Below the pieces are notes generated by a model. It made no database searches and was not told the DNA's origin. It saw nothing but the letters and a program-made list of their open reading frames with translations. A stretch of DNA of 40,906 nt from Flavobacteriales bacterium (GTDB lineage Bacteria; Bacteroidota; Bacteroidia; Flavobacteriales; Flavobacteriaceae). Positions 648 to 25,017 of the stretch are shown here, piece by piece. The stretch lies in NCBI GenBank assembly GCA_027066365.1, contig JAMONV010000036.1:1-40906 (forward strand), written 5' to 3'. How positions within the stretch are numbered: position 1 is the first letter of the stretch; the number at the start of each line of letters is the position of its first letter. The position numbers and the translations under genes were made by a program.

Positions 648-3356
648 TTATTTGTAAGAAAAGTTAAAATATCTAAATTGAGCCTGACTTAGGTTAGGGT
701 AACCGGATTGAAGTTTTGGTTTACCTCTATTTAAATATCCATATTTAATGTTGTTAATAATCCGCTTAAACTGAGATTTATTTAAGGAACTTCCTCTCAA
801 TTCAGATCTTCCTTGCGACATTAAATTAAAAGGATTTTCTACATGAGATAATCCTAAAAGATGTCCCATTTCGTGTGCTGTTGTTCGCTCACCTTCATGA
901 CCAATATACTTATCGTAAAAACCTGTAAAATAATCAGCATCTACAACTGCAACTTTACCACCTAATATATTTGCCGCACCGGAAATGCCATTATTATTTT
1001 TTGAAGGCTCGGCCAAAATGATTAAATGATCACTGTCCTCAACTTCATCCATAGTTTTTGCTATACTGAATTCAAAACTCATTTGAATAGCATATCCATC
1101 AATGTCTTCCGCTTGATAAACTCGCTCCATATAAGATTTAATATCGCTTAATGCTTTGTCCAAATCCACGTCATTGTAGGACATATTTATTAATTTACCT
1201 GAAATATGAATAGTTTTTACAATTTTACCATCAATTTTTTGCTGGGTTATCCATATACTATCCCCCTTAATATCAACTAAATTAATAGGATTTCCGGCGG
1301 TATAATTATATGGAGAAATGCCGGGATATTTATGAGCATATCTATCCACACTCAGCCACATGCTCACCTTCGGATCATAGTATCTCGCTCCGTAATAATA
1401 CAATCCGGTTTCTTCATCCAATTCTTTCCCGTTGAATTTGTAGGGGTTGTCGTACCGGTAACCGCCTTGCTCGATGAAGGTTTCGCCGTAGGGGAGGTTG
1501 AGGAAGAATTGTTCGGGCCTTCCTTCGAGGTCGGTGATGAGGGTGCCGGTGCCCAGGTGGTCGGGGTGGAACCAATAGACTTGGGCGCGCGGGCGGGCGG
1601 CAGTGCGCACGCCGGGTGTGTCCACGGCCACGGGCTTGGCGGGCGGGGCGAAGGTCACTTTGATATTTTTCAGATAACGTTGCATGTCTTGTAGTTGCAA
1701 GTTACGGATTTTTCGGTATTTATCATCTGCACCGGTATTTTTTCGGTATGACATAAAAGGATTGCCGGGAATAAGCCGGGCGGCTATGCGGCGATTGCCG
1801 CTAAAGTAGTGTTTGGTGTAATTACGTTCTCCGTTGACGGTGAGATAGGCGCTCGGATAGAGTTTGAAGTCCGTTATTTCCACTTGACGGCTTACGGGTT
1901 GTCCGTTTTCATATACTTCCATTTCTTTGCTTTGGGCTTTGATCACACGTTCGCCGTCGGCATCGTAGAGGTAGTAATGGAATCCGTTTTCGTTGTTCAC
2001 TAAGCGCAATCGATTAACTTCGTCCCACCACATATGTTTGTTTTCTATGGCGAATGCGCCTTCAATGGAAGTTATATTTCCGTTCCGGTCATAATAAAAT
2101 TCTTTTGAACCTACGCCGGCATATTCAATGGATTTGATCAGGTGAGAACCGTCTATGTAGAAATACTCCGCTTCATAAGTGTTATCCGAAATCAAACTTC
2201 CGTTGCGCCGGTGTTCTTGGGCTTTGTATATGATTTCATATACACCGTTATATTTGAATTGAGAACGATAAGAGGCATCGTTATCGCTATTGCGGAAATT
2301 CCCTTGGGCGGCTATAAGCCTGTTCATATCGTCATAGAAGTATTCCATTGTAAACGAACCCGTTATTTCCGTTTGTGTTCCGTTAATAGCGTTTTCCATT
2401 CGCGTTATGTTGCCTGCATAATCATAAGCATAGTTTAAGTTGAGAAATACTTCACCGGTTTGCAGGTTGTAAGTTTTAGTATTTTGCAGACGTTGTAGAT
2501 AAGGGTCATAGGAATAAACGGTTTGAATATCGTTTCCGAAATCCATTTGTATGATATTTCCCCATTTGTCATAGTTTATATTGCGGACATATGTTGTCTG
2601 ACCTTTTATCTTTTTCAGGTTACCTCCCTGATCATAGAAATATTTTACCACTTCGCCGTCGGGATATGTTATGGACTGAATTCGGTTCCATGAGTCATAA
2701 GAAAAGAGGGTTTTGAAAGAGGATACCTGTCCGTTGGGTAGCACTACTGTCCTTTCGATTCTGGTCAGTTCACCCAGTTTGCCATATTCAAAATACTGAT
2801 CGCCCGTAGCGTCACGTTGATAAATCAATCTTCCGGTTTGGTTTCCGGAATTCGGCTGTCCGTATTTGTAATACACGTTGGCTACATTGTCTTGTCCGTT
2901 AATAGAGGGGAAGATTATTTTATATAAGCGTCCTCTGTCATAGACGTATTCTATGCTTTGATGTCTTGCTTGTAATTCGGCATTTTGCATATATTTCAGA
3001 TTACCGGTGGTTTCATCAAAGAAATATAGTATTTCACCGTAATCGGGGGAAGATATTTTTATTTTACGTCCCATCATATCATAACTATACGAAGTAATTA
3101 CTCCTTTATGGTCGCGATAAGCTATGAGTTGACCTAAGAGGTCATAATTAAAGGTGGTCCAAAAGATAAAATGGATTTCTCCTTGTGCTTTTATTGCGTT
3201 TGACACGAAAATAGTTAAAAAATCCAATTCACCGTATTTTCGCAACATCGAACCCGGTGAAGAAATTGTGGTGGAAATTTTAAAGGCCGATGGTAATCGT
3301 TTCATAGGAGAGTATGTGAAAGGGGTTTTTTCTTTGTTCCCGTGGAAATCATTCAA
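648..3356 (-). CDS. 5'-truncated RHS-repeat protein with C-terminal zinc-metallopeptidase tip
   Basis: The frame is 902 codons, but it opens with TTG and the first ~66 residues do not look like RHS. YD-type repeats begin near residue 67 (base ~3158; FNYDLLGQL, then SYSYDMMGR). The RHS core spans about residues 594-698 (HPDHLGTGT, YGETF, KFNGKELD, YYYGARYYDP, GNPINLVD). After the core comes an unrelated ~204-residue tip (648-1262) containing HEMGHLLGLSH at residues 828-838 and a methionine 8 residues later (M846), the HExxHxxGxxH plus Met-turn pattern of metzincins. The linker before the core is Pro/Ala-rich and strongly GC-rich on the DNA (about 1480-1670), while the tip is AT-rich, the usual RHS mosaic. 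No signal peptide or N-terminal domain is present, so this is probably a displaced or decayed RHS end rather than a full toxin; M94 (base 3077) is a possible internal start. Confidence 0.8.
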   Translation of the reverse strand: MNDFHGNKEKTPFTYSPMKRLPSAFKISTTISSPGSMLRKYGELDFLTIFVSNAIKAQGEIHFIFWTTFNYDLLGQLIAYRDHKGVITSYSYDMMGRKIKISSPDYGEILYFFDETTGNLKYMQNAELQARHQSIEYVYDRGRLYKIIFPSINGQDNVANVYYKYGQPNSGNQTGRLIYQRDATGDQYFEYGKLGELTRIERTVVLPNGQVSSFKTLFSYDSWNRIQSITYPDGEVVKYFYDQGGNLKKIKGQTTYVRNINYDKWGNIIQMDFGNDIQTVYSYDPYLQRLQNTKTYNLQTGEVFLNLNYAYDYAGNITRMENAINGTQTEITGSFTMEYFYDDMNRLIAAQGNFRNSDNDASYRSQFKYNGVYEIIYKAQEHRRNGSLISDNTYEAEYFYIDGSHLIKSIEYAGVGSKEFYYDRNGNITSIEGAFAIENKHMWWDEVNRLRLVNNENGFHYYLYDADGERVIKAQSKEMEVYENGQPVSRQVEITDFKLYPSAYLTVNGERNYTKHYFSGNRRIAARLIPGNPFMSYRKNTGADDKYRKIRNLQLQDMQRYLKNIKVTFAPPAKPVAVDTPGVRTAARPRAQVYWFHPDHLGTGTLITDLEGRPEQFFLNLPYGETFIEQGGYRYDNPYKFNGKELDEETGLYYYGARYYDPKVSMWLSVDRYAHKYPGISPYNYTAGNPINLVDIKGDSIWITQQKIDGKIVKTIHISGKLINMSYNDVDLDKALSDIKSYMERVYQAEDIDGYAIQMSFEFSIAKTMDEVEDSDHLIILAEPSKNNNGISGAANILGGKVAVVDADYFTGFYDKYIGHEGERTTAHEMGHLLGLSHVENPFNLMSQGRSELRGSSLNKSQFKRIINNIKYGYLNRGKPKLQSGYPNLSQAQFRYFNFSYK

Positions 3357-16388: not shown

Positions 16389-17153
16389 TTAGAGCCGATT
16401 CAACATGCCCGTAATATTATTGTGGATTTCCAAGGTCTTGGCGTAAACTTTTTCCGGATCGGGGTTTTCGGTCAACAAATAATCCGCAAAACCGTTCATG
16501 AGCTTGGATAAATATTCGATTTCAGCTTTATTTTTTCCGGTTTTAAATTCCATTTTATCGATGCTGTCAATCAAAGCGGTATAATTGCGCATCTGTGCAT
16601 CGAAGATAAGATTGAAATAATCGCTTTTCTCCATTAATTTAGCCATGAAAACAAAAGAAAGCATATGCGTTCGCTCCAAAGCATCCCTTAAGAATCTCTC
16701 ACGGGGTGTTATTTTCACATGGGTTCCGCTCAAGAGTTTTTGATTCAAACGGTTGATTTTGCGATTCATTTCCGAGAAACGCTCATACAATTTTATCGAC
16801 TGCCCGCGTCTGTAAAAATGAATGATTTTATTGCGGATACTATACCAAAATCCCGAAATTTTTTCAATATCGGAATAAAAAGCGGGTTGTGCATCCGCAA
16901 ATTCTTCGGATATCAACAGGTTATGCTCCGCTTGCGCAATTCTGTCATCCAAAAAAGCGGCACTTTGCGAAGGGTTGATTCCCCGGGAATAATATAGATA
17001 AGCCTCCATGGAAGAAAGCATATTGATTTTCATCCTATATAATTGGTCTCGTGCTTCCTCTTTGGATATGGCACGCGAAAATTGACCGTAAGTCATTAAA
17101 GGATAATAGATTAAAACAAACCAAAAACCTATATAAAACCACCTGTTTTTCAT
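16389..17153 (-). CDS. Exported helical protein of unknown function, paralogue A
   Basis: A 254-residue protein with an N-terminal signal peptide (WFYIGFWFVLIYYPLMTYG). The mature part is almost all helix-forming, rich in Lys/Glu/Leu/Met, with a mid-protein FWYSIRNKII segment. Its C-terminal stretch DPEKVYAKTLEIHNN aligns by eye with the ends of the next two genes. I recognise no family; the layout recalls periplasmic helical-bundle sensor domains, but no membrane re-entry or signalling module is present. It is the last gene of a three-gene minus-strand operon, 3 bases after its neighbour. Confidence 0.7.
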   Translation of the reverse strand: MKNRWFYIGFWFVLIYYPLMTYGQFSRAISKEEARDQLYRMKINMLSSMEAYLYYSRGINPSQSAAFLDDRIAQAEHNLLISEEFADAQPAFYSDIEKISGFWYSIRNKIIHFYRRGQSIKLYERFSEMNRKINRLNQKLLSGTHVKITPRERFLRDALERTHMLSFVFMAKLMEKSDYFNLIFDAQMRNYTALIDSIDKMEFKTGKNKAEIEYLSKLMNGFADYLLTENPDPEKVYAKTLEIHNNITGMLNRL

Positions 17154-17156
17154 GGA

Positions 17157-17933
17157 TTATTTATTTAAGGTCGGATAAATCAAATCGAACAAACGAAAAA
17201 CCCGGTTGTTAAATTTCGCATGCGATCGATAAATCACTTCAGGTTTATAACCGTTGTCAATCGCTCTGCCAAAAGTTTTCAAATCCGCTATCATATTGGC
17301 AGTTAAAAAACTAATATTGTTATTTTTTTTATATTTCCTGCGGATTTTCAACAATGATTCCGCATAATCTTCCATGGCTTTATAAACTTTTCCGTTATTT
17401 TGCCGGAGCAAATATTCCTTAAAAATATTTTCCACTCCGTTGTTAATATCGCGAAGGCGGTTCAGCAATGCCAAATCAGGTTCGTCAAAACTCAAAAACA
17501 AGAGAATTTCTTTTTCCAAATTTTCCCGTTGAGAACGAAAACGGTTAAACAACTTTTGAGCATATTTTCGTGATTCGTTTTGACCGGAAACAAGCATCGA
17601 CGAAAGAATATCCCACGATTTTTTCCATTTCATGTGAATTTTAAAAAGTTTTTCGTTTTCCGCCGGAATATTCACCGTCACACTGTCGACCAAAGCATTC
17701 ATAAAGACCACGTCCCGGTTTAATTTATCTTTGGTTTCATAAGGATAAACCCCTCTATCCAAAAATAACATGTCGGCTTCCAATTGATAGGAAAGCATCT
17801 CGGCACGAAACAAATCGGCATAGATTTTCTCCAATTTGTGTGCGTCATATTGCGCCGTCACCGATAATTCGATAAGGAAAATTAAAATAGCGACGCGTAG
17901 AGATTTAATCATAGACATTCCACTTTTACTCAT
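17157..17933 (-). CDS. Exported helical protein of unknown function, paralogue B
   Basis: A 258-residue protein with a signal peptide (SLRVAILIFLIELSVTAQ); a start at the internal methionine before IKSLRVAIL is also possible. The mature part is helical, with KKSWDILSSML in the middle and, near the end, NGYKPEVIYRSHAKFNNRV, which resembles the ends of paralogues A and C. No known family. It overlaps paralogue C by 8 bases and is followed by A after 3 bases, so the three are co-translated and may form one complex. Confidence 0.7.
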   Translation of the reverse strand: MSKSGMSMIKSLRVAILIFLIELSVTAQYDAHKLEKIYADLFRAEMLSYQLEADMLFLDRGVYPYETKDKLNRDVVFMNALVDSVTVNIPAENEKLFKIHMKWKKSWDILSSMLVSGQNESRKYAQKLFNRFRSQRENLEKEILLFLSFDEPDLALLNRLRDINNGVENIFKEYLLRQNNGKVYKAMEDYAESLLKIRRKYKKNNNISFLTANMIADLKTFGRAIDNGYKPEVIYRSHAKFNNRVFRLFDLIYPTLNK

Positions 17934-18696
17934 TGAACAGTTTACTTAAATAAAAATGCATGGTACTCACCGAAGCAAACACCGTACGCTCGGCCGGAAT
18001 AAATCCGTTTGACATATTGAAGCGTAAAAATTTCCATTCGTTTAAGCTTTTAGCCAAATATCGTGCCGTTTTTTCATCCTTAAAACTTTTGCGACTTTTC
18101 ATTGACTCCAAATATTCGGCCACCTTCGATTTGCTTTGATAAAATAACTTTTCAAAACTCTTATTTACGGGATATTTATCGGTCATATAGCCGACATTCA
18201 TAATATATAAATTGCGGATGGCTTCGTAATTGGCACGCATATCGGCATACTTCTTGGCTTTAAAACCGAATTTGTCTTCCATTTTATTGAGCATGATTTC
18301 CAAAAAACTGTCAAAGGTTTTTGTATCGTAAAAGAAACGGGCAAAGCTTTTTTTGTCCAATTTTGCCAAAGCATGAAACCGCAAATTATCCCAAAGTTTG
18401 ACGGCTTGTTCCAGTTGATTTTGTGTTTCCACTAAATGCAAGCGGTTCTCCAACGAACCGAGTTTTTCTTCCAAAATTCCAATGGCTTCGGCCAAATCCT
18501 CTTGAATAAGACTGAAGCCGGGTTGGTGCATTTCATATATCTTATCCCGGTCTATCCGGAAAATTTGAATCCGGATTTCCATGACATCCCGGTATAATTG
18601 TTCGTTTTTTTCCAAGGTTGACACGGCCGGCGCTTGCGCCCGTAACGAGCTCATTATCAAGAATACAACCGGAAATATGTAAACAAAGTTTCTCAT
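17926..18696 (-). CDS. Exported helical protein of unknown function, paralogue C
   Basis: A 256-residue protein with a signal peptide (MRNFVYIFPVVFLIMSSLRAQ). The helical mature part contains AVKLWDNLRFHAL, matching the mid-protein Trp segments of A and B, and ends with NGFIPAERTVFASVSTM, the counterpart of the NGYKPE stretch in B. It is the first gene of the operon, with a TATATTTG box 17 bases upstream. No family is recognised. Confidence 0.7.
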   Translation of the reverse strand: MRNFVYIFPVVFLIMSSLRAQAPAVSTLEKNEQLYRDVMEIRIQIFRIDRDKIYEMHQPGFSLIQEDLAEAIGILEEKLGSLENRLHLVETQNQLEQAVKLWDNLRFHALAKLDKKSFARFFYDTKTFDSFLEIMLNKMEDKFGFKAKKYADMRANYEAIRNLYIMNVGYMTDKYPVNKSFEKLFYQSKSKVAEYLESMKSRKSFKDEKTARYLAKSLNEWKFLRFNMSNGFIPAERTVFASVSTMHFYLSKLFNE

Positions 18697-20694: not shown

Positions 20695-21054
20695 TTAATG
20701 CATTCGCCTTATCCACTCCACTTGTAAACGTGCGATTTTTTCATTGACCGGCTCCAAGTGCATGCAAAAAAGTTTGAATGCCAAATCCGAAAATTTATAA
20801 TCGTGAACCAACCGGTGCCTGTCGTCCGAAAAAACAGGCATTACGTGATGTTCCGCCGGAATACCCGCCCGTTGAAGGGTGGTGAGGGTTTTCTCCAGCG
20901 CCTCGATAAATTGCTCTTCGGTTTCCATCTCCAACCCATGAAAAAGATCCGACGCTAAATATTTCATGCGGCTTTCCATGAGATTTTCCATAAACTTTTC
21001 AATGAATCCCAAATTTTGCTGAAACGGGTACAATGCTTCTGTTTTCTTAATCAT
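20695..21054 (-). CDS. Unknown 119-residue protein coupled to dnaJ
   Basis: A helical, Met/His-rich protein ([31 protein letters not shown]) with no signal peptide, membrane segment or recognisable domain. Its start overlaps the dnaJ stop by 4 bases, so it is translationally coupled. In other bacteria the modulator CbpM sits in this position after cbpA, but this protein does not show the MerR-like helix-turn-helix I would expect of CbpM. A co-chaperone or chaperone-modulator role is inference from position. Confidence 0.7.
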
Positions 21055-21968
21055 GATCGTAGGTTTTTTAATTCTTCATAAAGTTGTTTTTCACGCAACG
21101 ATAAATGTTGCGGCACAATGATTTTGACCGAAGCATATAAATCTCCGTATTGACCTTCATGTCCGTAAACGGGCATTCCCTTGCCACGAATACGTAATTT
21201 TTTTCCGCAAGAACTGCCGGGCGGCACCGTCACCTGAATTGGCCCCGATGGTGTATTCAAAGACACTTTACCGCCCAAAACGGCCGTTACATCGTCAACC
21301 TCCAAGGTGGTATACAAGTCGTCTCCCTTACGAACGAATTGCGGACTATCGCCAACATGAATGGTGATATACAAATCGCCGTCGGCACCACCGTTGATTC
21401 CTTTTCCGCCTTTCCCTTTGAGACGAATAACTTGACCTTCATAAGCACCGGGCTTTATGCGGATGCGCAATTTCTTGTCTCCCAAATCAATAATTCGCGA
21501 AGTACCGTGATAAGCTTCGTCAAACGCTAACGTCATCTCGGCATGATAATCGCGTCCCTTGCGCGGAATATCGGTTCGCGCACGATAAGCCCGGCTTCCG
21601 AAACCACCAAAACCACCGAACAAATCGAACAAATCACCCAGATCCTCCCAATTGCCTTCATAAGTCGACCCGCCGCCAAAACGATGAAAACCACTTTGGC
21701 GACGCGCCTGTTCCCGTGCCTTTTTGTATTCGTCATATTGACGCCAATACATCCCCACTTCGTCGTATTTTTTTCGGTTTTCGGGATTTCCCAAAACTTC
21801 GTAAGCTTCGTTGATTTCCTTGAACTTTTCTTCGGCCTCCTTGTTGTTTTTATTACGATCCGGGTGATATTTTCGCGCCAGCTTCCGGTAGGCTTTCTTA
21901 ATTTCGTCTTGAGAAGCGTTCTTGGAAACACCGAGAATTTTATAGTAATCCTTAAATTTTTCTTCCAT
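21051..21968 (-). CDS. cbpA: CbpA-type DnaJ co-chaperone
   Basis: A 305-residue class-II J protein. The J domain spans about residues 6-70 ([16 protein letters not shown] at 35-37, [12 protein letters not shown]), a Gly/Phe-rich linker follows ([14 protein letters not shown]), then two beta-rich substrate-binding domains and a C-terminal dimer segment. There is no CxxCxGxG zinc region, which separates it from DnaJ proper. It would stimulate DnaK and hold unfolded proteins in the cytosol. It lies 3 bases after the HPF/sigma-like gene and is coupled to the 119-residue protein downstream. Confidence 0.93.
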
Positions 21969-21971
21969 ATA

Positions 21972-22967
21972 TTAAGGTTTTTGGATTTTTCGGCGAAAAG
22001 CCGATTCCACTTCCTGTTTGAAATCCTGCAATTGTTGACGAATACTTTCCGCATTTTTGCCCAGCACCATGGCAATTTCATCTTCATTGAATTGTTCCAG
22101 ATAATACATTTGAACCGCCGCACGGGTTTCCGAATCCTGACTGTCGATAACCGTTTGAAGGGTTTCGTCTATCTGTTTGTCATTCAAATTTTCATAAACC
22201 CCGTCAATCACATCGCCGGCTTCGGTGATATCTTCCAACATGATATTTTCCGAATCGAAAATTTCTTTCGGCGCATCATTATCGCCCTCAAACTCTTCGA
22301 TGTCCAATTCGCCCGCCACCTCGACCAAGGAATTCCGGTATCCCGATAATACTTCTTCCGCAACCCCGAAAAGCAAACTTTCCATATCAACCGCATGAGA
22401 TGATTTGGGATCGAATTTTTCATAAAATTTCCGTTCGATCAATTCCGTAAGCTCCGGCAACTGCGCCTTAATTTGCTTCTTGGTAAACCCTAGCGATTTC
22501 AAGCGTGTTTTGAGATATTTCTGCACCGCTTTCATTACCGCCTTCACCTTTCGTTTGCCTTTCACGGTTTGGGTTTGCGCCTTTTCCGCTTCCACTTCCG
22601 ATTTCAACTCGGGCAACCATGCTTGCCATTTTTGTCGACGATAGCGCTTGCGCTTATACAAATAATCTTTACGCTCCAATTGTATTTGCTTCTTAACGGC
22701 TTTTTTAAAATCCTTCCATGCTTCCGACCAAATTTTCAACAAGTCTTTACCCGTTTTCACTACCTGCAAATCCTTGCTCTTCATATTGATTTCAATGGAC
22801 ACACGGTATTCGTTATCCTTATTTAAACCGACTTTCAGTATTAAATCTTTGTCGTATTTCTTGAATAATTGCTCGTAATAATCTTTTTTGTCTTGAACGG
22901 AACGTTTAATTTCAGCCTGATATACCGGTTCGATTTCATTAAAATTGTAAATTTCAAGATTTAACAT
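21972..22967 (-). CDS. Putative HPF/RaiA-like domain fused to a sigma-70 region-4-like HTH
   Basis: A 331-residue cytosolic protein. Residues ~18-105 resemble the beta-alpha half of ribosome hibernation factors: YRVSIEINMKSKDLQVV then GKDLLKIWSEAWKDFKKAV and a very basic LERKDYLYKRKRYRRQ tail. A basic then helical middle (about 120-220) and an acidic linker (220-260) follow. The C-terminus (262-326) reads like sigma-70 region 4: DSETRAAVQMYYLEQF, NEDEIAMVLGKNAESIRQQL. There is no visible sigma region 2. It starts the transcript that includes cbpA. It could be a ribosome-binding stress regulator or a divergent sigma-like factor; the domain calls are by eye. Confidence 0.6.
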   Translation of the reverse strand: MLNLEIYNFNEIEPVYQAEIKRSVQDKKDYYEQLFKKYDKDLILKVGLNKDNEYRVSIEINMKSKDLQVVKTGKDLLKIWSEAWKDFKKAVKKQIQLERKDYLYKRKRYRRQKWQAWLPELKSEVEAEKAQTQTVKGKRKVKAVMKAVQKYLKTRLKSLGFTKKQIKAQLPELTELIERKFYEKFDPKSSHAVDMESLLFGVAEEVLSGYRNSLVEVAGELDIEEFEGDNDAPKEIFDSENIMLEDITEAGDVIDGVYENLNDKQIDETLQTVIDSQDSETRAAVQMYYLEQFNEDEIAMVLGKNAESIRQQLQDFKQEVESAFRRKIQKP

Positions 22968-23057: not shown

Positions 23058-24026
23058 TTATTTTTCAGTTTTATTGAAAAACAATCTGACTTTAAATGTA
23101 TTTATTTTTTGTTTCAACGAATCAAACAAACCTTTGGTTTCCTGTTTGTTTTCCACCGCTTTTTTCAATACGGCTATGGCATCGGCAAGCTCTTTATATT
23201 CCTTGTCGCGTTTACCGTAACCGAGCGCCTGCGCCAATTTCAATTGATAACCGGCGTTGTCGAGCAAAAGTTTCACTTCTTGTGTATCTGCTTTTTCTTT
23301 GTCTTCCATTATCGAGGCGGCAGCCTTAATATATTCCTCGGCACGCAAAACGGGAATCGGAATATGTTGTTCGGTCATCACCAAAGTATTAAGTGCGCGC
23401 ACCAAAATCACTTTGGCTTCGTCTTTTCTTCCTTGATTGAGCAAGGAAACGGCCAACTTCATGGCATCAGGATATGTGGCTAAAGGTAAATAGGAAGTCC
23501 TGACCACAATTTCGCTTGCCAAATTATTCAGAATTTGACGTGCGGCCTGATAATAACCGTCATCCATGGCCGATTGCGCTTGCTCGGTCATAACTTTCAC
23601 CGTCTCCATATCGGCTACCAAATCGCGGGTTTCCATGTTCACATCCACCGGAATAATCGACAAGGAAGGGTCCTTGGCCATCAGCACCTCCAATTGACCG
23701 ATAATGGTAGCCATTTCTTTTTCGGCCTCATCGATTTTTCCCTTATCGATTAAATCCACCGTTCCGGCGGTTTCTTCAATAATTTTCATCGCGGATTTGA
23801 TTTTTTCCGCATCTTTTTTTTGTATTTTATCCATTTCGGTCCGCACGTTTTCATTCACGTTTTTCGTCAATTGTTCGTCCTTCATCTTAGGGTGTGCGGG
23901 TTTTTGTACGGATGCTTGTTTTATTTCGGTTGCTTTCATCGTTTCCGACTTTTGAGTTTGTTTATTTTCCGGTTGACATGACCACATTAACAATACAACC
24001 GGCACTATCCATATCCACTTTTTCAT
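23058..24026 (-). CDS. yfdX: YfdX-family lipoprotein
   Basis: A 322-residue lipoprotein: signal KKWIWIVPVVLLMWSC with the cysteine at the lipobox, then a Lys/Gln-rich spacer. The YfdX domain (about 85-280) shows AEKEMATIIGQLEVLMA, the mid-domain IIPVDVN, GYYQAARQILNNLASEIV, YLPLATYPDAMKLA and HIPIPVLRAEEYIKAA. YfdX proteins are periplasmic stress proteins, induced by acid and multidrug regulators in enterobacteria and carried in pairs in heat-resistance islands; their biochemical role is unclear. It is paralogous to the gene 6 bases upstream and has the same GGAACT-ATG start context. Confidence 0.88.
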   Translation of the reverse strand: MKKWIWIVPVVLLMWSCQPENKQTQKSETMKATEIKQASVQKPAHPKMKDEQLTKNVNENVRTEMDKIQKKDAEKIKSAMKIIEETAGTVDLIDKGKIDEAEKEMATIIGQLEVLMAKDPSLSIIPVDVNMETRDLVADMETVKVMTEQAQSAMDDGYYQAARQILNNLASEIVVRTSYLPLATYPDAMKLAVSLLNQGRKDEAKVILVRALNTLVMTEQHIPIPVLRAEEYIKAAASIMEDKEKADTQEVKLLLDNAGYQLKLAQALGYGKRDKEYKELADAIAVLKKAVENKQETKGLFDSLKQKINTFKVRLFFNKTEK

Positions 24027-24032
24027 AGTTCC

Positions 24033-24950
24033 TTATTTTTGTTTTTTATAGAACAACCTTTCTTTGAATTTCTTCAACTCAAGGCTTAAATCTTTCAAAG
24101 CCTTTCCGGTTTTCTTTTCGCGTCCTTTATTGACATAATCTTTCAACCTCACAATCGCTTGATGTAAATCTTTATATTCCTTGTCTTTTTTGCCATATCC
24201 CATGGCCTGCGCCAAATCCAACTGATAAGACGCCGCATCCAACAAAGCCAATAAGGTTTCTTTATTTTCCTTAAATGCTTTTTCATTGTTCAATACTTTG
24301 ACGGCTTCTTTGATATATTCTTCGGCGCGTAATACCGGAAGCGGAATGATTTCTTCCCCGATTATCAACGTGTTTAACGCATTGACCAGCACGGCCGCCG
24401 CTTCGCGATTTTTGCCTTCATGCATCAATTTTGCCGCCAATTTCATAGCACCGGGATAGGTGGCCATGGGCAAATATGCCGTCTTGATAACCAATTCGCT
24501 CGACAAATCGTTCAACACTTGCTTGGCCTCCTGATAATAACCTTGCTCAATGGCTTTCTTCACATGATCCATAATCGTCCTCACCGTGCTCACATCGGTC
24601 ACCGCATCCTTCATTTCCACATTGGCATCCACGGGAATAAGCGACAACTCGGGTTTTTGCGCCAAAAGTATCTCCAATTTGCCGATTACTTCGGCTAATT
24701 TCTTTTCGGCTTCGTCATTTTTGTTTTGCGCCAAATCGGCAATAACCGCTTGTGTTTCCTTCAATATCGCAATGGCTTCTTCCGTCTCCTTGATTTCGGC
24801 ATTCTTAATTTTATTACTCACACTTTTTCCAATGCGCTCTTGCATTTGTTCTTTGCTAATTCCGGTTTTTCCGGCTTGATTTTGTTGCTGTGCCGTCATC
24901 ATGCCTGCTATCAGCATGAAAATACCTGTAATTAAAACTTTTGTTTTCAT
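24033..24950 (-). CDS. yfdX: YfdX-family secreted protein
   Basis: A 305-residue exported protein. I place the start at base 24950 because a clean signal peptide begins there (MKTKVLITGIFMLIAGMMTAQ) and the GGAACT before it repeats in the paralogue; the frame is open to 25010. The YfdX domain is intact: KLEILLAQKPELSLIPVD, GYYQEAKQVLNDLSSELV, YLPMATYPGAMKLAAKL and IIPLPVLRAEEYIKEA. It is close kin to the lipoprotein downstream but lacks a lipobox, so one copy should be free in the periplasm and the other membrane-bound. The promoter region has a palindrome and a sigma-54-like element. Confidence 0.88.
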   Translation of the reverse strand: MKTKVLITGIFMLIAGMMTAQQQNQAGKTGISKEQMQERIGKSVSNKIKNAEIKETEEAIAILKETQAVIADLAQNKNDEAEKKLAEVIGKLEILLAQKPELSLIPVDANVEMKDAVTDVSTVRTIMDHVKKAIEQGYYQEAKQVLNDLSSELVIKTAYLPMATYPGAMKLAAKLMHEGKNREAAAVLVNALNTLIIGEEIIPLPVLRAEEYIKEAVKVLNNEKAFKENKETLLALLDAASYQLDLAQAMGYGKKDKEYKDLHQAIVRLKDYVNKGREKKTGKALKDLSLELKKFKERLFYKKQK

Positions 24951-24993
24951 AGTTCCGTTTTTTTTGTTTAACATAAAATCCATATTTGAGGTT

Positions 24994-25017
24994 ATCAAAG
25001 CTTTTGCCACCTTTGAT
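24994..25017. promoter_or_regulatory. Inverted repeat overlapping a sigma-54-like promoter of yfdX1
   Basis: ATCAAAG-N10-CTTTGAT is a perfect 7-base inverted repeat. On the minus strand bases 25009-24995 read TGGCAA-N5-TTGA, near the sigma-54 pattern TGGCAC-N5-TTGC with correct spacing. The predicted start is near 24983, 33 bases before the yfdX start. Confidence 0.4.

Follow-up and report, generated by a model that had tools for sequence, protein, structure and literature searches.

In a Flavobacteriales genome, one gene encodes a protein in which a domain predicted to fold like the ribosome hibernation factors HPF and RaiA is joined to a unit resembling a complete ECF sigma factor. Its family is found in two phyla, in stress clusters of Bacteroidota and in mobile stress islands of Pseudomonadota. 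From fold, family and gene context we infer that this stress-cluster protein is a ribosome-docking HPF/RaiA factor whose second half mimics a sigma factor and has RNA polymerase or an anti-sigma factor, not DNA, as its binding partner (estimated probability about 0.5). That one protein may link ribosome state to gene expression had been proposed in an earlier reading of this DNA (the original prediction), and it is our best reading as well.

Ribosome hibernation and sigma switching are two main bacterial routes into and out of stasis, and in the proteins known to us they are carried out by different molecules. If our reading is true, a single family joining both parts would be a physical link between them. 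The family also provides a domain assignment and a testable job for orf11, whose role in a much-studied stress island had been unexplained.

A fusion gene in a stress cluster

Within the window (the whole stretch of 40,906 nucleotides that was analysed), the gene is part of a same-strand run in the order YfdX, YfdX, 90-nt gap, fusion gene, cbpA and a 119 aa ORF. The features are:

24033..25010, minus strand: second YfdX family protein (family match)
23058..24026, minus strand: YfdX family protein (family match)
21972..22967, minus strand: HPF-sigma-mimic fusion gene, ATG start, 331 aa (ORF list, AlphaFold2, structure and profile matches)
22626..22967, minus strand: predicted HPF/RaiA-fold domain, residues 1-114 (model, structure matches, 19 stand-alone homologues of 109-113 aa)
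22626..22742, minus strand: second helix and basic tail of the HPF domain, residues 76-114 (net charge +11, identity 0.85)
22329..22556, minus strand: sigma2-like domain, residues 138-213 (profile comparison via divergent Bacteroidota copies, structure, identity 0.71)
22182..22328, minus strand: acidic linker, residues 214-262 (net charge -16)
21975..22181, minus strand: sigma4-like domain, residues 263-331 (Pfam, structure; without the usual basic residues of the recognition helix)
21051..21968, minus strand: CbpA-type DnaJ co-chaperone (family match; start 3 nt past the fusion-gene stop codon)
20695..21054, minus strand: 119 aa ORF (4 nt overlap with cbpA; position conserved)

The original prediction had placed the gene ahead of cbpA in a stress block. 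This placement holds, with the stop codon 3 nt before cbpA and two YfdX genes upstream, and the sequence strings quoted there stand at the quoted residues of the 331 aa ORF. The 119 aa ORF had no family match in the Pfam/NCBIfam scan; from its position only, we take it to be CbpM-like. A promoter scan gave 17 promoter-like sites versus 9.6 expected and was set aside as evidence.

All eight other genomes of the genus carry an orthologue of 47-53% identity, which in two cases runs into a contig end; none was found in 51 genomes of other genera of the family or order. The YfdX pair lies upstream in seven of the eight and is absent in L016. CbpA follows in all six loci in which the contig continues, and the 119 aa ORF follows CbpA in five of these, the sixth being cut by the contig end. 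We conclude that the fusion gene is a real gene.

When six segments were compared within the genus, mean pairwise identity was highest in the second helix and tail of the HPF domain (0.85), the tail being near-invariant. It was 0.71 in the sigma2-like domain and lowest in the sigma4-like domain (0.42) and the spacer of residues 115-137 (0.39). The HPF-like ending is clearer in the orthologues (DRDPVxALRRAFAEFKKAVKRQxxxERKDYLYKRKRY) than in the window protein.

The first half is predicted to have an HPF fold

The first ~114 residues are predicted to adopt the beta-alpha-beta-beta-beta-alpha fold of HPF/RaiA. In the AlphaFold2 model of the window protein, the elements are E2-7, H14-34, E42-50, E54-61, E66-73 and H76-126 (strand-helix-strand-strand-strand-helix), with block pLDDT values of 80-91 over residues 1-100 (whole-model mean 74.0, pTM 0.39). 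Foldseek matched the fusion model to HPF chains at probability 1.00 (E from 2.3e-3), and VIA-align superposed the HPF part on the HPF chain of the Lyme-pathogen ribosome (Z 13.0, rmsd 2.0 Å, 95 residues). An HPF/RaiA layout had originally been read from the N-terminal sequence, and the predicted structure agrees with it.

Sequence comparison leads to the same fold in steps. The window protein has no Ribosomal_S30AE (PF02482) match; among the members scanned individually, a plasmid copy from Agrobacterium (P0002) alone passes the cut-off (24.1 versus 23.7), L097 reaches 23.0 and the others score less or not at all. A profile of 16 fusions found, in the correct domain order, PDB sigmas at E 2.6e-10, the PhyR sigma-like domain at 1.9e-7 and HPF chains at 8e-6 to 1e-5. 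In profile-profile comparisons, the pooled N-domains of the family scored 88% versus canonical HPF (E 3e-6) and those of the window genus directly only 0.5%, against 0.2-2.0% in five control pairs; window-genus versus Pseudomonadota N-domains scored 94.1%. Measured over shuffles, z of the window N-domain was 23.6-31.0 versus 16 stand-alone homologues, only 2.4-6.3 versus eight Pseudomonadota N-domains and 0.4-5.0 versus nine canonical HPFs. Given these low values, structure and intermediates are needed to link the window N-domain to canonical HPF. All 18 fusions have a basic HPF half (net charge +8 to +14; +1 to +8 in the nine canonical HPFs, which are nine of ten loci found, L020 being left out by the extraction rule). 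The window genome also encodes a canonical HPF (G000:C53).

A contig scan with the orthologue profile gave 27 loci. Eight of them are fusions; the other 19 (L036-L054) encode stand-alone proteins of 109-113 aa that match the first half only (41-48%). The AlphaFold2 model of a stand-alone protein contains the same elements as the HPF part of the window protein (mean pLDDT 88.9), and its 24 PDB matches in Foldseek at E <= 0.001 are all of HPF/RaiA/protein Y type. PF02482 was matched by two of five scanned stand-alones (E 7e-4 and 7e-3), with all five below the cut-off. Directly upstream of 11 of the 19 lies an HdeD-type ORF of 181-196 aa, with DUF308 in both of the two tested; two more have a Lon-like ORF upstream (one tested), and L044 has no room upstream. 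The sets for profile comparisons, charges and trees hold 16 of the 19 stand-alones (without L044, L051 and L052) and seven of the nine same-genus fusions (without L034 and L035, cut by contig ends). A search with the stand-alone HPF model found three of 395 genomes of the phylum (G000, the window genome, G066 and G095); the family is rare in this sample, though the collection scan gave 19 stand-alone copies.

The second half resembles a complete ECF sigma unit

In the second half, the original prediction had recognised a region-4-like helix-turn-helix (residues 262-326). Region 4 was recovered at the C-terminus, where VIA-align gave a region-4 fold (Z 10.3, rmsd 1.4, 69 residues) and Sigma70_r4_2 matched the window protein at E 5e-4, below the curated cut-off; among the same-genus matches listed (25 of 36 families), it was found in six of nine members (best 8.5e-9). 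The description was incomplete, since a sigma2-like domain (~138-213) and an acidic linker precede region 4. With residues ~138-213 sigma2-like, all parts of an ECF-like sigma unit are present in the second half: sigma2, linker and sigma4. Its top Foldseek match was ECF sigma H (E 2.9e-4, probability 1.00, 192 columns), at a TM of 0.19 and rmsd of 21 because the two domains are placed differently. Residues 133-223 were aligned on a sigma2 by VIA-align (Z 8.7, rmsd 3.4, 81 residues), a match that by itself is weak for a helical bundle. DUF6074 (eight of nine same-genus members among the matches listed, best E 1.6e-4), YcaO, Hydant_A_C, ApoLp-III and others were taken as chance matches because they are missing from the tables of the divergent copies.

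These divergent copies are full-length fusions from elsewhere in the class, namely genome G066 and genome G095 (which has two). Their sigma parts aligned with ordinary ECF sigmas along 175 columns (98%, E 1e-14); the sigma part of the window genus aligned with theirs along 160 columns (98%, E 1.5e-12); compared directly with ECFs, the latter matched in region 4 only (97.5%). Across profile-profile comparisons, sigma parts versus ordinary ECFs gave 96-98% (E 1e-9 to 9e-15). The window genus scored 31.7% against the Pseudomonadota sigma part directly and 97.7% plus 97.7% through G066/G095. The family thus has both the sigma2 and the sigma4 domain of an ECF sigma, sigma2 of the window genus by way of the divergent copies. 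That direct profile comparisons are weak in places, so that links run through intermediates, counts against the best explanation.

In G095, L086:4694-10547 carries two divergent HPF-sigma fusions clustered with YfdX, FtsH and a 99 aa ORF without family match.

DNA-reading segments lack positive charge

Regions 2.3-2.4 and 4.2 are the segments by which ECF sigmas read -10 and -35 DNA. Judged from alignments, the fusions lack the basic residues of an ECF sigma for this task. Median net charge was -2 in 18 fusions versus +5 in 18 ordinary sigmas for regions 2.3-2.4, and -2 versus +2 for region 4.2. At the positions corresponding to sigma-E R176 and R171, a basic residue stands in none (six acidic) and five (seven acidic) of the 18 fusions, respectively, versus 15 of the 18 sigmas at each. 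The whole second half ranges from -14 to -28 in fusions and from -6 to +8 in sigmas; with the linker excluded, 14 representatives range from -12 to +1 versus -2 to +13. In the window protein, the linker carries a net charge of -16 and the sigma4 part one of -5. The sigma2-like part is at +8 owing to its first helix, which speaks against the best explanation.

Of the ordinary sigmas, four come from the five own-genome loci (the fifth, L098, is longer and RpoD-like and was omitted); the remaining 14 are ORFs of 150-225 aa taken at the 27 loci L058-L084. These 14 lean towards the family because they were found with its own profile, and one, L080_0, looks FliA-like. The 18 fusions include near copies (Ecol/Ente/Acin and L029-L031), and relatedness of the sequences inflates p-values of the charge comparison.

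With the positive charge of the DNA-reading segments lost, direct promoter binding is unlikely and protein binding likelier. The original prediction had left region 4 to bind either -35 DNA or protein partners; the first option loses ground and the second gains. The charge loss, which extends across the compared clades, also makes it quite improbable that the protein functions as an ECF sigma controlled through docking of its HPF domain on ribosomes (release when they are busy, or the reverse). Such a role would suit the three of six scanned members that reach the NCBIfam ECF sigma cut-off of 42.9 bits (P0002 45.7, the second L086 copy 46.0, P0004 42.9) and the annotation of several alpha-proteobacterial copies as sigma factors, other records being hypothetical.

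Regions 2.1-2.2, the core-binding part of sigma, are less acidic in the fusions (median -1 versus -3). At one position of region 2.2, sigmas usually have Q (15 of 18), and 17 of 18 fusions have D or E there. With this replacement, core binding of the fusions cannot be taken for granted. It may be altered too, which would speak against the best explanation.

The two halves also occur alone

In the trees, all family N-domains split from nine canonical HPFs (100/99), and all family sigma parts split from ordinary sigmas (98/97). With 18 of 39 and 10 of 33 inner forks open and long branches flagged, the trees allow, without proving, a single fusion event.

The window genome encodes a lone sigma mimic (G000:C63:2736-3443, L117), a 235 aa protein without HPF domain that matches the sigma half at E 1.6e-20 and has no Pfam match at E <= 0.01. 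Four nucleotides past it starts smpB (L117:3448-3927), whose identity was tested for the window genome only. Homologues of ~230-260 aa were found in 23 of 119 relatives, including all nine genomes of the genus. In seven of the nine genus loci an smpB-like ORF comes next; L123 differs and L127 is unreadable by the ORF rule. By eye, Hsp20-like or HdeD-like ORFs lie near the lone mimic in three of 11 loci of other genera (L132, L139, L140). Furthermore, the two halves are separate genes in G775 (a MAG, 89% complete, 2% contamination, 840 contigs): a 110 aa HPF-like protein lies near an antiporter, and a sigma-like reading frame of ~244 aa (start approximate) lies beside a ClpB-type ATPase and FtsH. 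The split halves in G775 and the lone mimic before smpB connect the sigma half with ribosomes independently of the fusion.

Phylum-wide, one search matched 40 of 395 genomes; outside G000, G066 and G095 no match begins before position 202. Many of these matches resemble ordinary sigmas, and that in G009 is a lone sigma mimic. The further search that found G000:C63 and G775 matched 84 of 395, of which G000:C63, G775, G666 and G726 were inspected. The G726 match is a fusion fragment cut by a contig end, and some of the matches spanning from position 131-197 on may be lone mimics too.

These data bear on another explanation, in which the sigma half has left transcription and serves as a helical interaction arm linking parked ribosomes to chaperones and proteases of the cluster (CbpA, ClpK, FtsH) or to a second ribosome. 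The C-terminal domain of long HPF does link to a second ribosome. The place of the lone mimic before smpB would suit such an arm, as would the changed region 2.2, the poorly conserved sigma4-like part (0.42, versus 0.85 in the HPF tail and 0.71 in the sigma2-like domain) and the proteostasis neighbours found in the window genus and in all eight annotated plasmid loci described below. However, separate clades retain the two sigma domains in unchanged order, and sigma models continue to match region 4; we regard this arm as somewhat unlikely.

A homologue in the tLST

The tLST, a mobile heat-tolerance island that occurs in E. coli and other bacteria, has been studied because of the heat and chlorine tolerance of bacteria from food and hospitals. 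When plasmids were searched by tblastn with one of the G095 copies, a weak match (E 0.02) was obtained in Agrobacterium CP129669.1. This copy (P0002) has 380 aa, is annotated 'sigma-70 family RNA polymerase sigma factor' and passes both the Pfam HPF (24.1 versus 23.7) and the NCBIfam ECF (45.7 versus 42.9) cut-offs. Its neighbours are Hsp20 genes, FtsH, a large AAA ATPase, HdeD, ClpP, thioredoxin, an antiporter, PsiE and HtpX. With P0002 as query, 300 of 72,556 plasmid records matched at E <= 1e-3, 271 of them covering 80% or more of the query at a single site; the genera were Klebsiella (125), Enterobacter (74), Acinetobacter (31) and Escherichia (29), among others. Nine plasmid loci were inspected, one of them without annotation, and the other eight all contain, within the stretch inspected, at least two stress genes among Hsp20, Clp ATPase, FtsH, HdeD, YfdX, GroEL and DnaK.

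In the E. coli and Enterobacter records inspected, the copy is a 381 aa 'hypothetical protein' between hdeD-GI and trx-GI, whose end overlaps trx by 11 nt. By the tLST gene order printed in PMC8290217, this is orf11. P0002 and the E. coli copy align by tblastn over 89% of the query (25.7%, E 7e-13), and the E. coli type matches the alpha/beta type in the first half at 96.8% (E 2e-10) and in the second at 99.7% (E 7e-26). Enterobacterial copies compared directly score 1.2% versus canonical HPF and 3.6% versus ECF, their links running through the alpha/beta type, and the sole Pfam match of the E. coli copy is region 4, below cut-off. Tblastn, profile comparison and trees indicate full-length homology of the family to orf11. 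In the multiple alignment, orf11 and the window protein are only 12-13% identical; both stand in a stress cluster with a YfdX pair. The window locus itself is no tLST (clpK, hsp20, hdeD, trx): a thioredoxin gene lies ~6 kb from the fusion gene, and no clpK, hsp20 or hdeD was seen by eye in the ORF lists, a part of whose ORFs was scanned. It carries the homologue in another stress cluster.

The original prediction knew of no characterised protein of this design. Our literature search, which covered few subscription papers, agrees in that no HPF-sigma fusion was described in a title or the start of an abstract; the family has turned out wider and includes orf11. The text available to us of tLST papers such as PMC8290217 and PMC7685784 gives no domain assignment for orf11. 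ORF10 of P. species is probably orf11, judged from its listed place between HdeD and thioredoxin (PMC7685784) rather than from sequence. Many genes of the tLST duplicate core stress genes (PMC8290217, PMC7685784). A second, modified HPF fits this pattern because the window genome keeps a canonical HPF. In the Balon paper, 'alternative sigma70 factors', RaiA and HdeD are named in the same stress operons (PMC10901736), and some of these factors may belong to the HPF-sigma family. PADLOC gave no match for three family members.

In E. coli MG1655 with the island, orf11 is reported to lie outside the seven of 13 genes whose deletion lowered heat or chlorine resistance, and its deletion left lipid oxidation unchanged (PMC8407380). 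In addition, orf11 is reported to be interrupted in LHR2 (PMC5383660). Both observations speak against the best explanation, and they would suit a degenerating fusion carried along by the island as a passenger. Short killing tests may, however, miss the effect of a hibernation factor. A search with the E. coli copy matched 298 plasmid records and 152 of 5426 complete E. coli genomes, and 144 of these 152 contain 80% or more of the gene (counted as DNA coverage only). Together with its retention in all eight other genomes of the genus and in two phyla, and with the near-invariant tail, this makes a mere passenger very improbable.

On some Escherichia and Klebsiella plasmids (H138-H142), only orf11 residues 1-196 match in one place, consistent with the LHR2 insertion.

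Proposed role and comparison with known systems

We therefore favour a ribosome-docking factor with a sigma mimic. Under stress, the HPF domain would act like HPF itself and occupy the mRNA/tRNA channel of idle 30S subunits; the sigma arm, on its acidic linker, would then bind sigma partners other than DNA. Since the sigma unit keeps its fold but not its DNA contacts, it should meet core RNA polymerase or an anti-sigma factor, and we do not rank these two partners against each other. The outcome would be polymerase parked beside parked ribosomes, or another sigma freed as PhyR does. Casual inspection showed no anti-sigma gene next to the fusion gene, a point against this reading.

PhyR is a response regulator whose sigma-like domain binds the anti-sigma factor NepR. 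Like PhyR, the family joins a sigma mimic to a sensing domain; PhyR chains were matched by the fusion profile, and the two best Pfam matches of the Burkholderia copy are PhyR_sigma-like and PhyR_sigma2 (25.6 and 20.1 bits, below the cut-off of 27). Where PhyR has a receiver domain, the family has an HPF domain, which is attached to the opposite end. The charge data would fit a sigma-like domain of the PhyR type that does not bind DNA. With HPF/RaiA (YfiA, pY), which are ribosome hibernation factors, the family has fold, length and the basic second helix in common, whereas its N-domains form a separate branch and the sigma half replaces the end of long HPF. With ECF (group-4 sigma70) factors it shares the sigma2-linker-sigma4 layout, but not the basic DNA-reading residues, and its sigma parts also form a separate branch. 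In E. coli, Rsd with RMF provides parallel hibernation of polymerase and ribosome (PMC6904343, PMC6134199). The idea of parking both machines is the same; there it is done by separate proteins, here it would be done by one.

A more far-reaching version of this reading, which we consider rather unlikely, would make the family cross-phylum tethers of a 'hibernating expressome', mobile in Pseudomonadota, with orf11 as the E. coli/Klebsiella form. The HPF domain would grip idle ribosomes and the sigma mimic core RNA polymerase, thereby coupling the parking and the restart of transcription and translation after proteotoxic stress. The replacement in region 2.2 makes this version somewhat less probable.

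Other reading frames in the window

Three adjacent ORFs of 254-258 aa at 16389-18696 (minus strand) have signal-like starts, appear by eye to be mutually related and had no Pfam match at cut-off; L010:19188-19937 carries an ORF resembling them. At 648-3356 (minus strand), a 902 aa ORF shows, by eye, YD/RHS-type repeats and, near its end, an HExGHxxGxxH metalloprotease-like motif.
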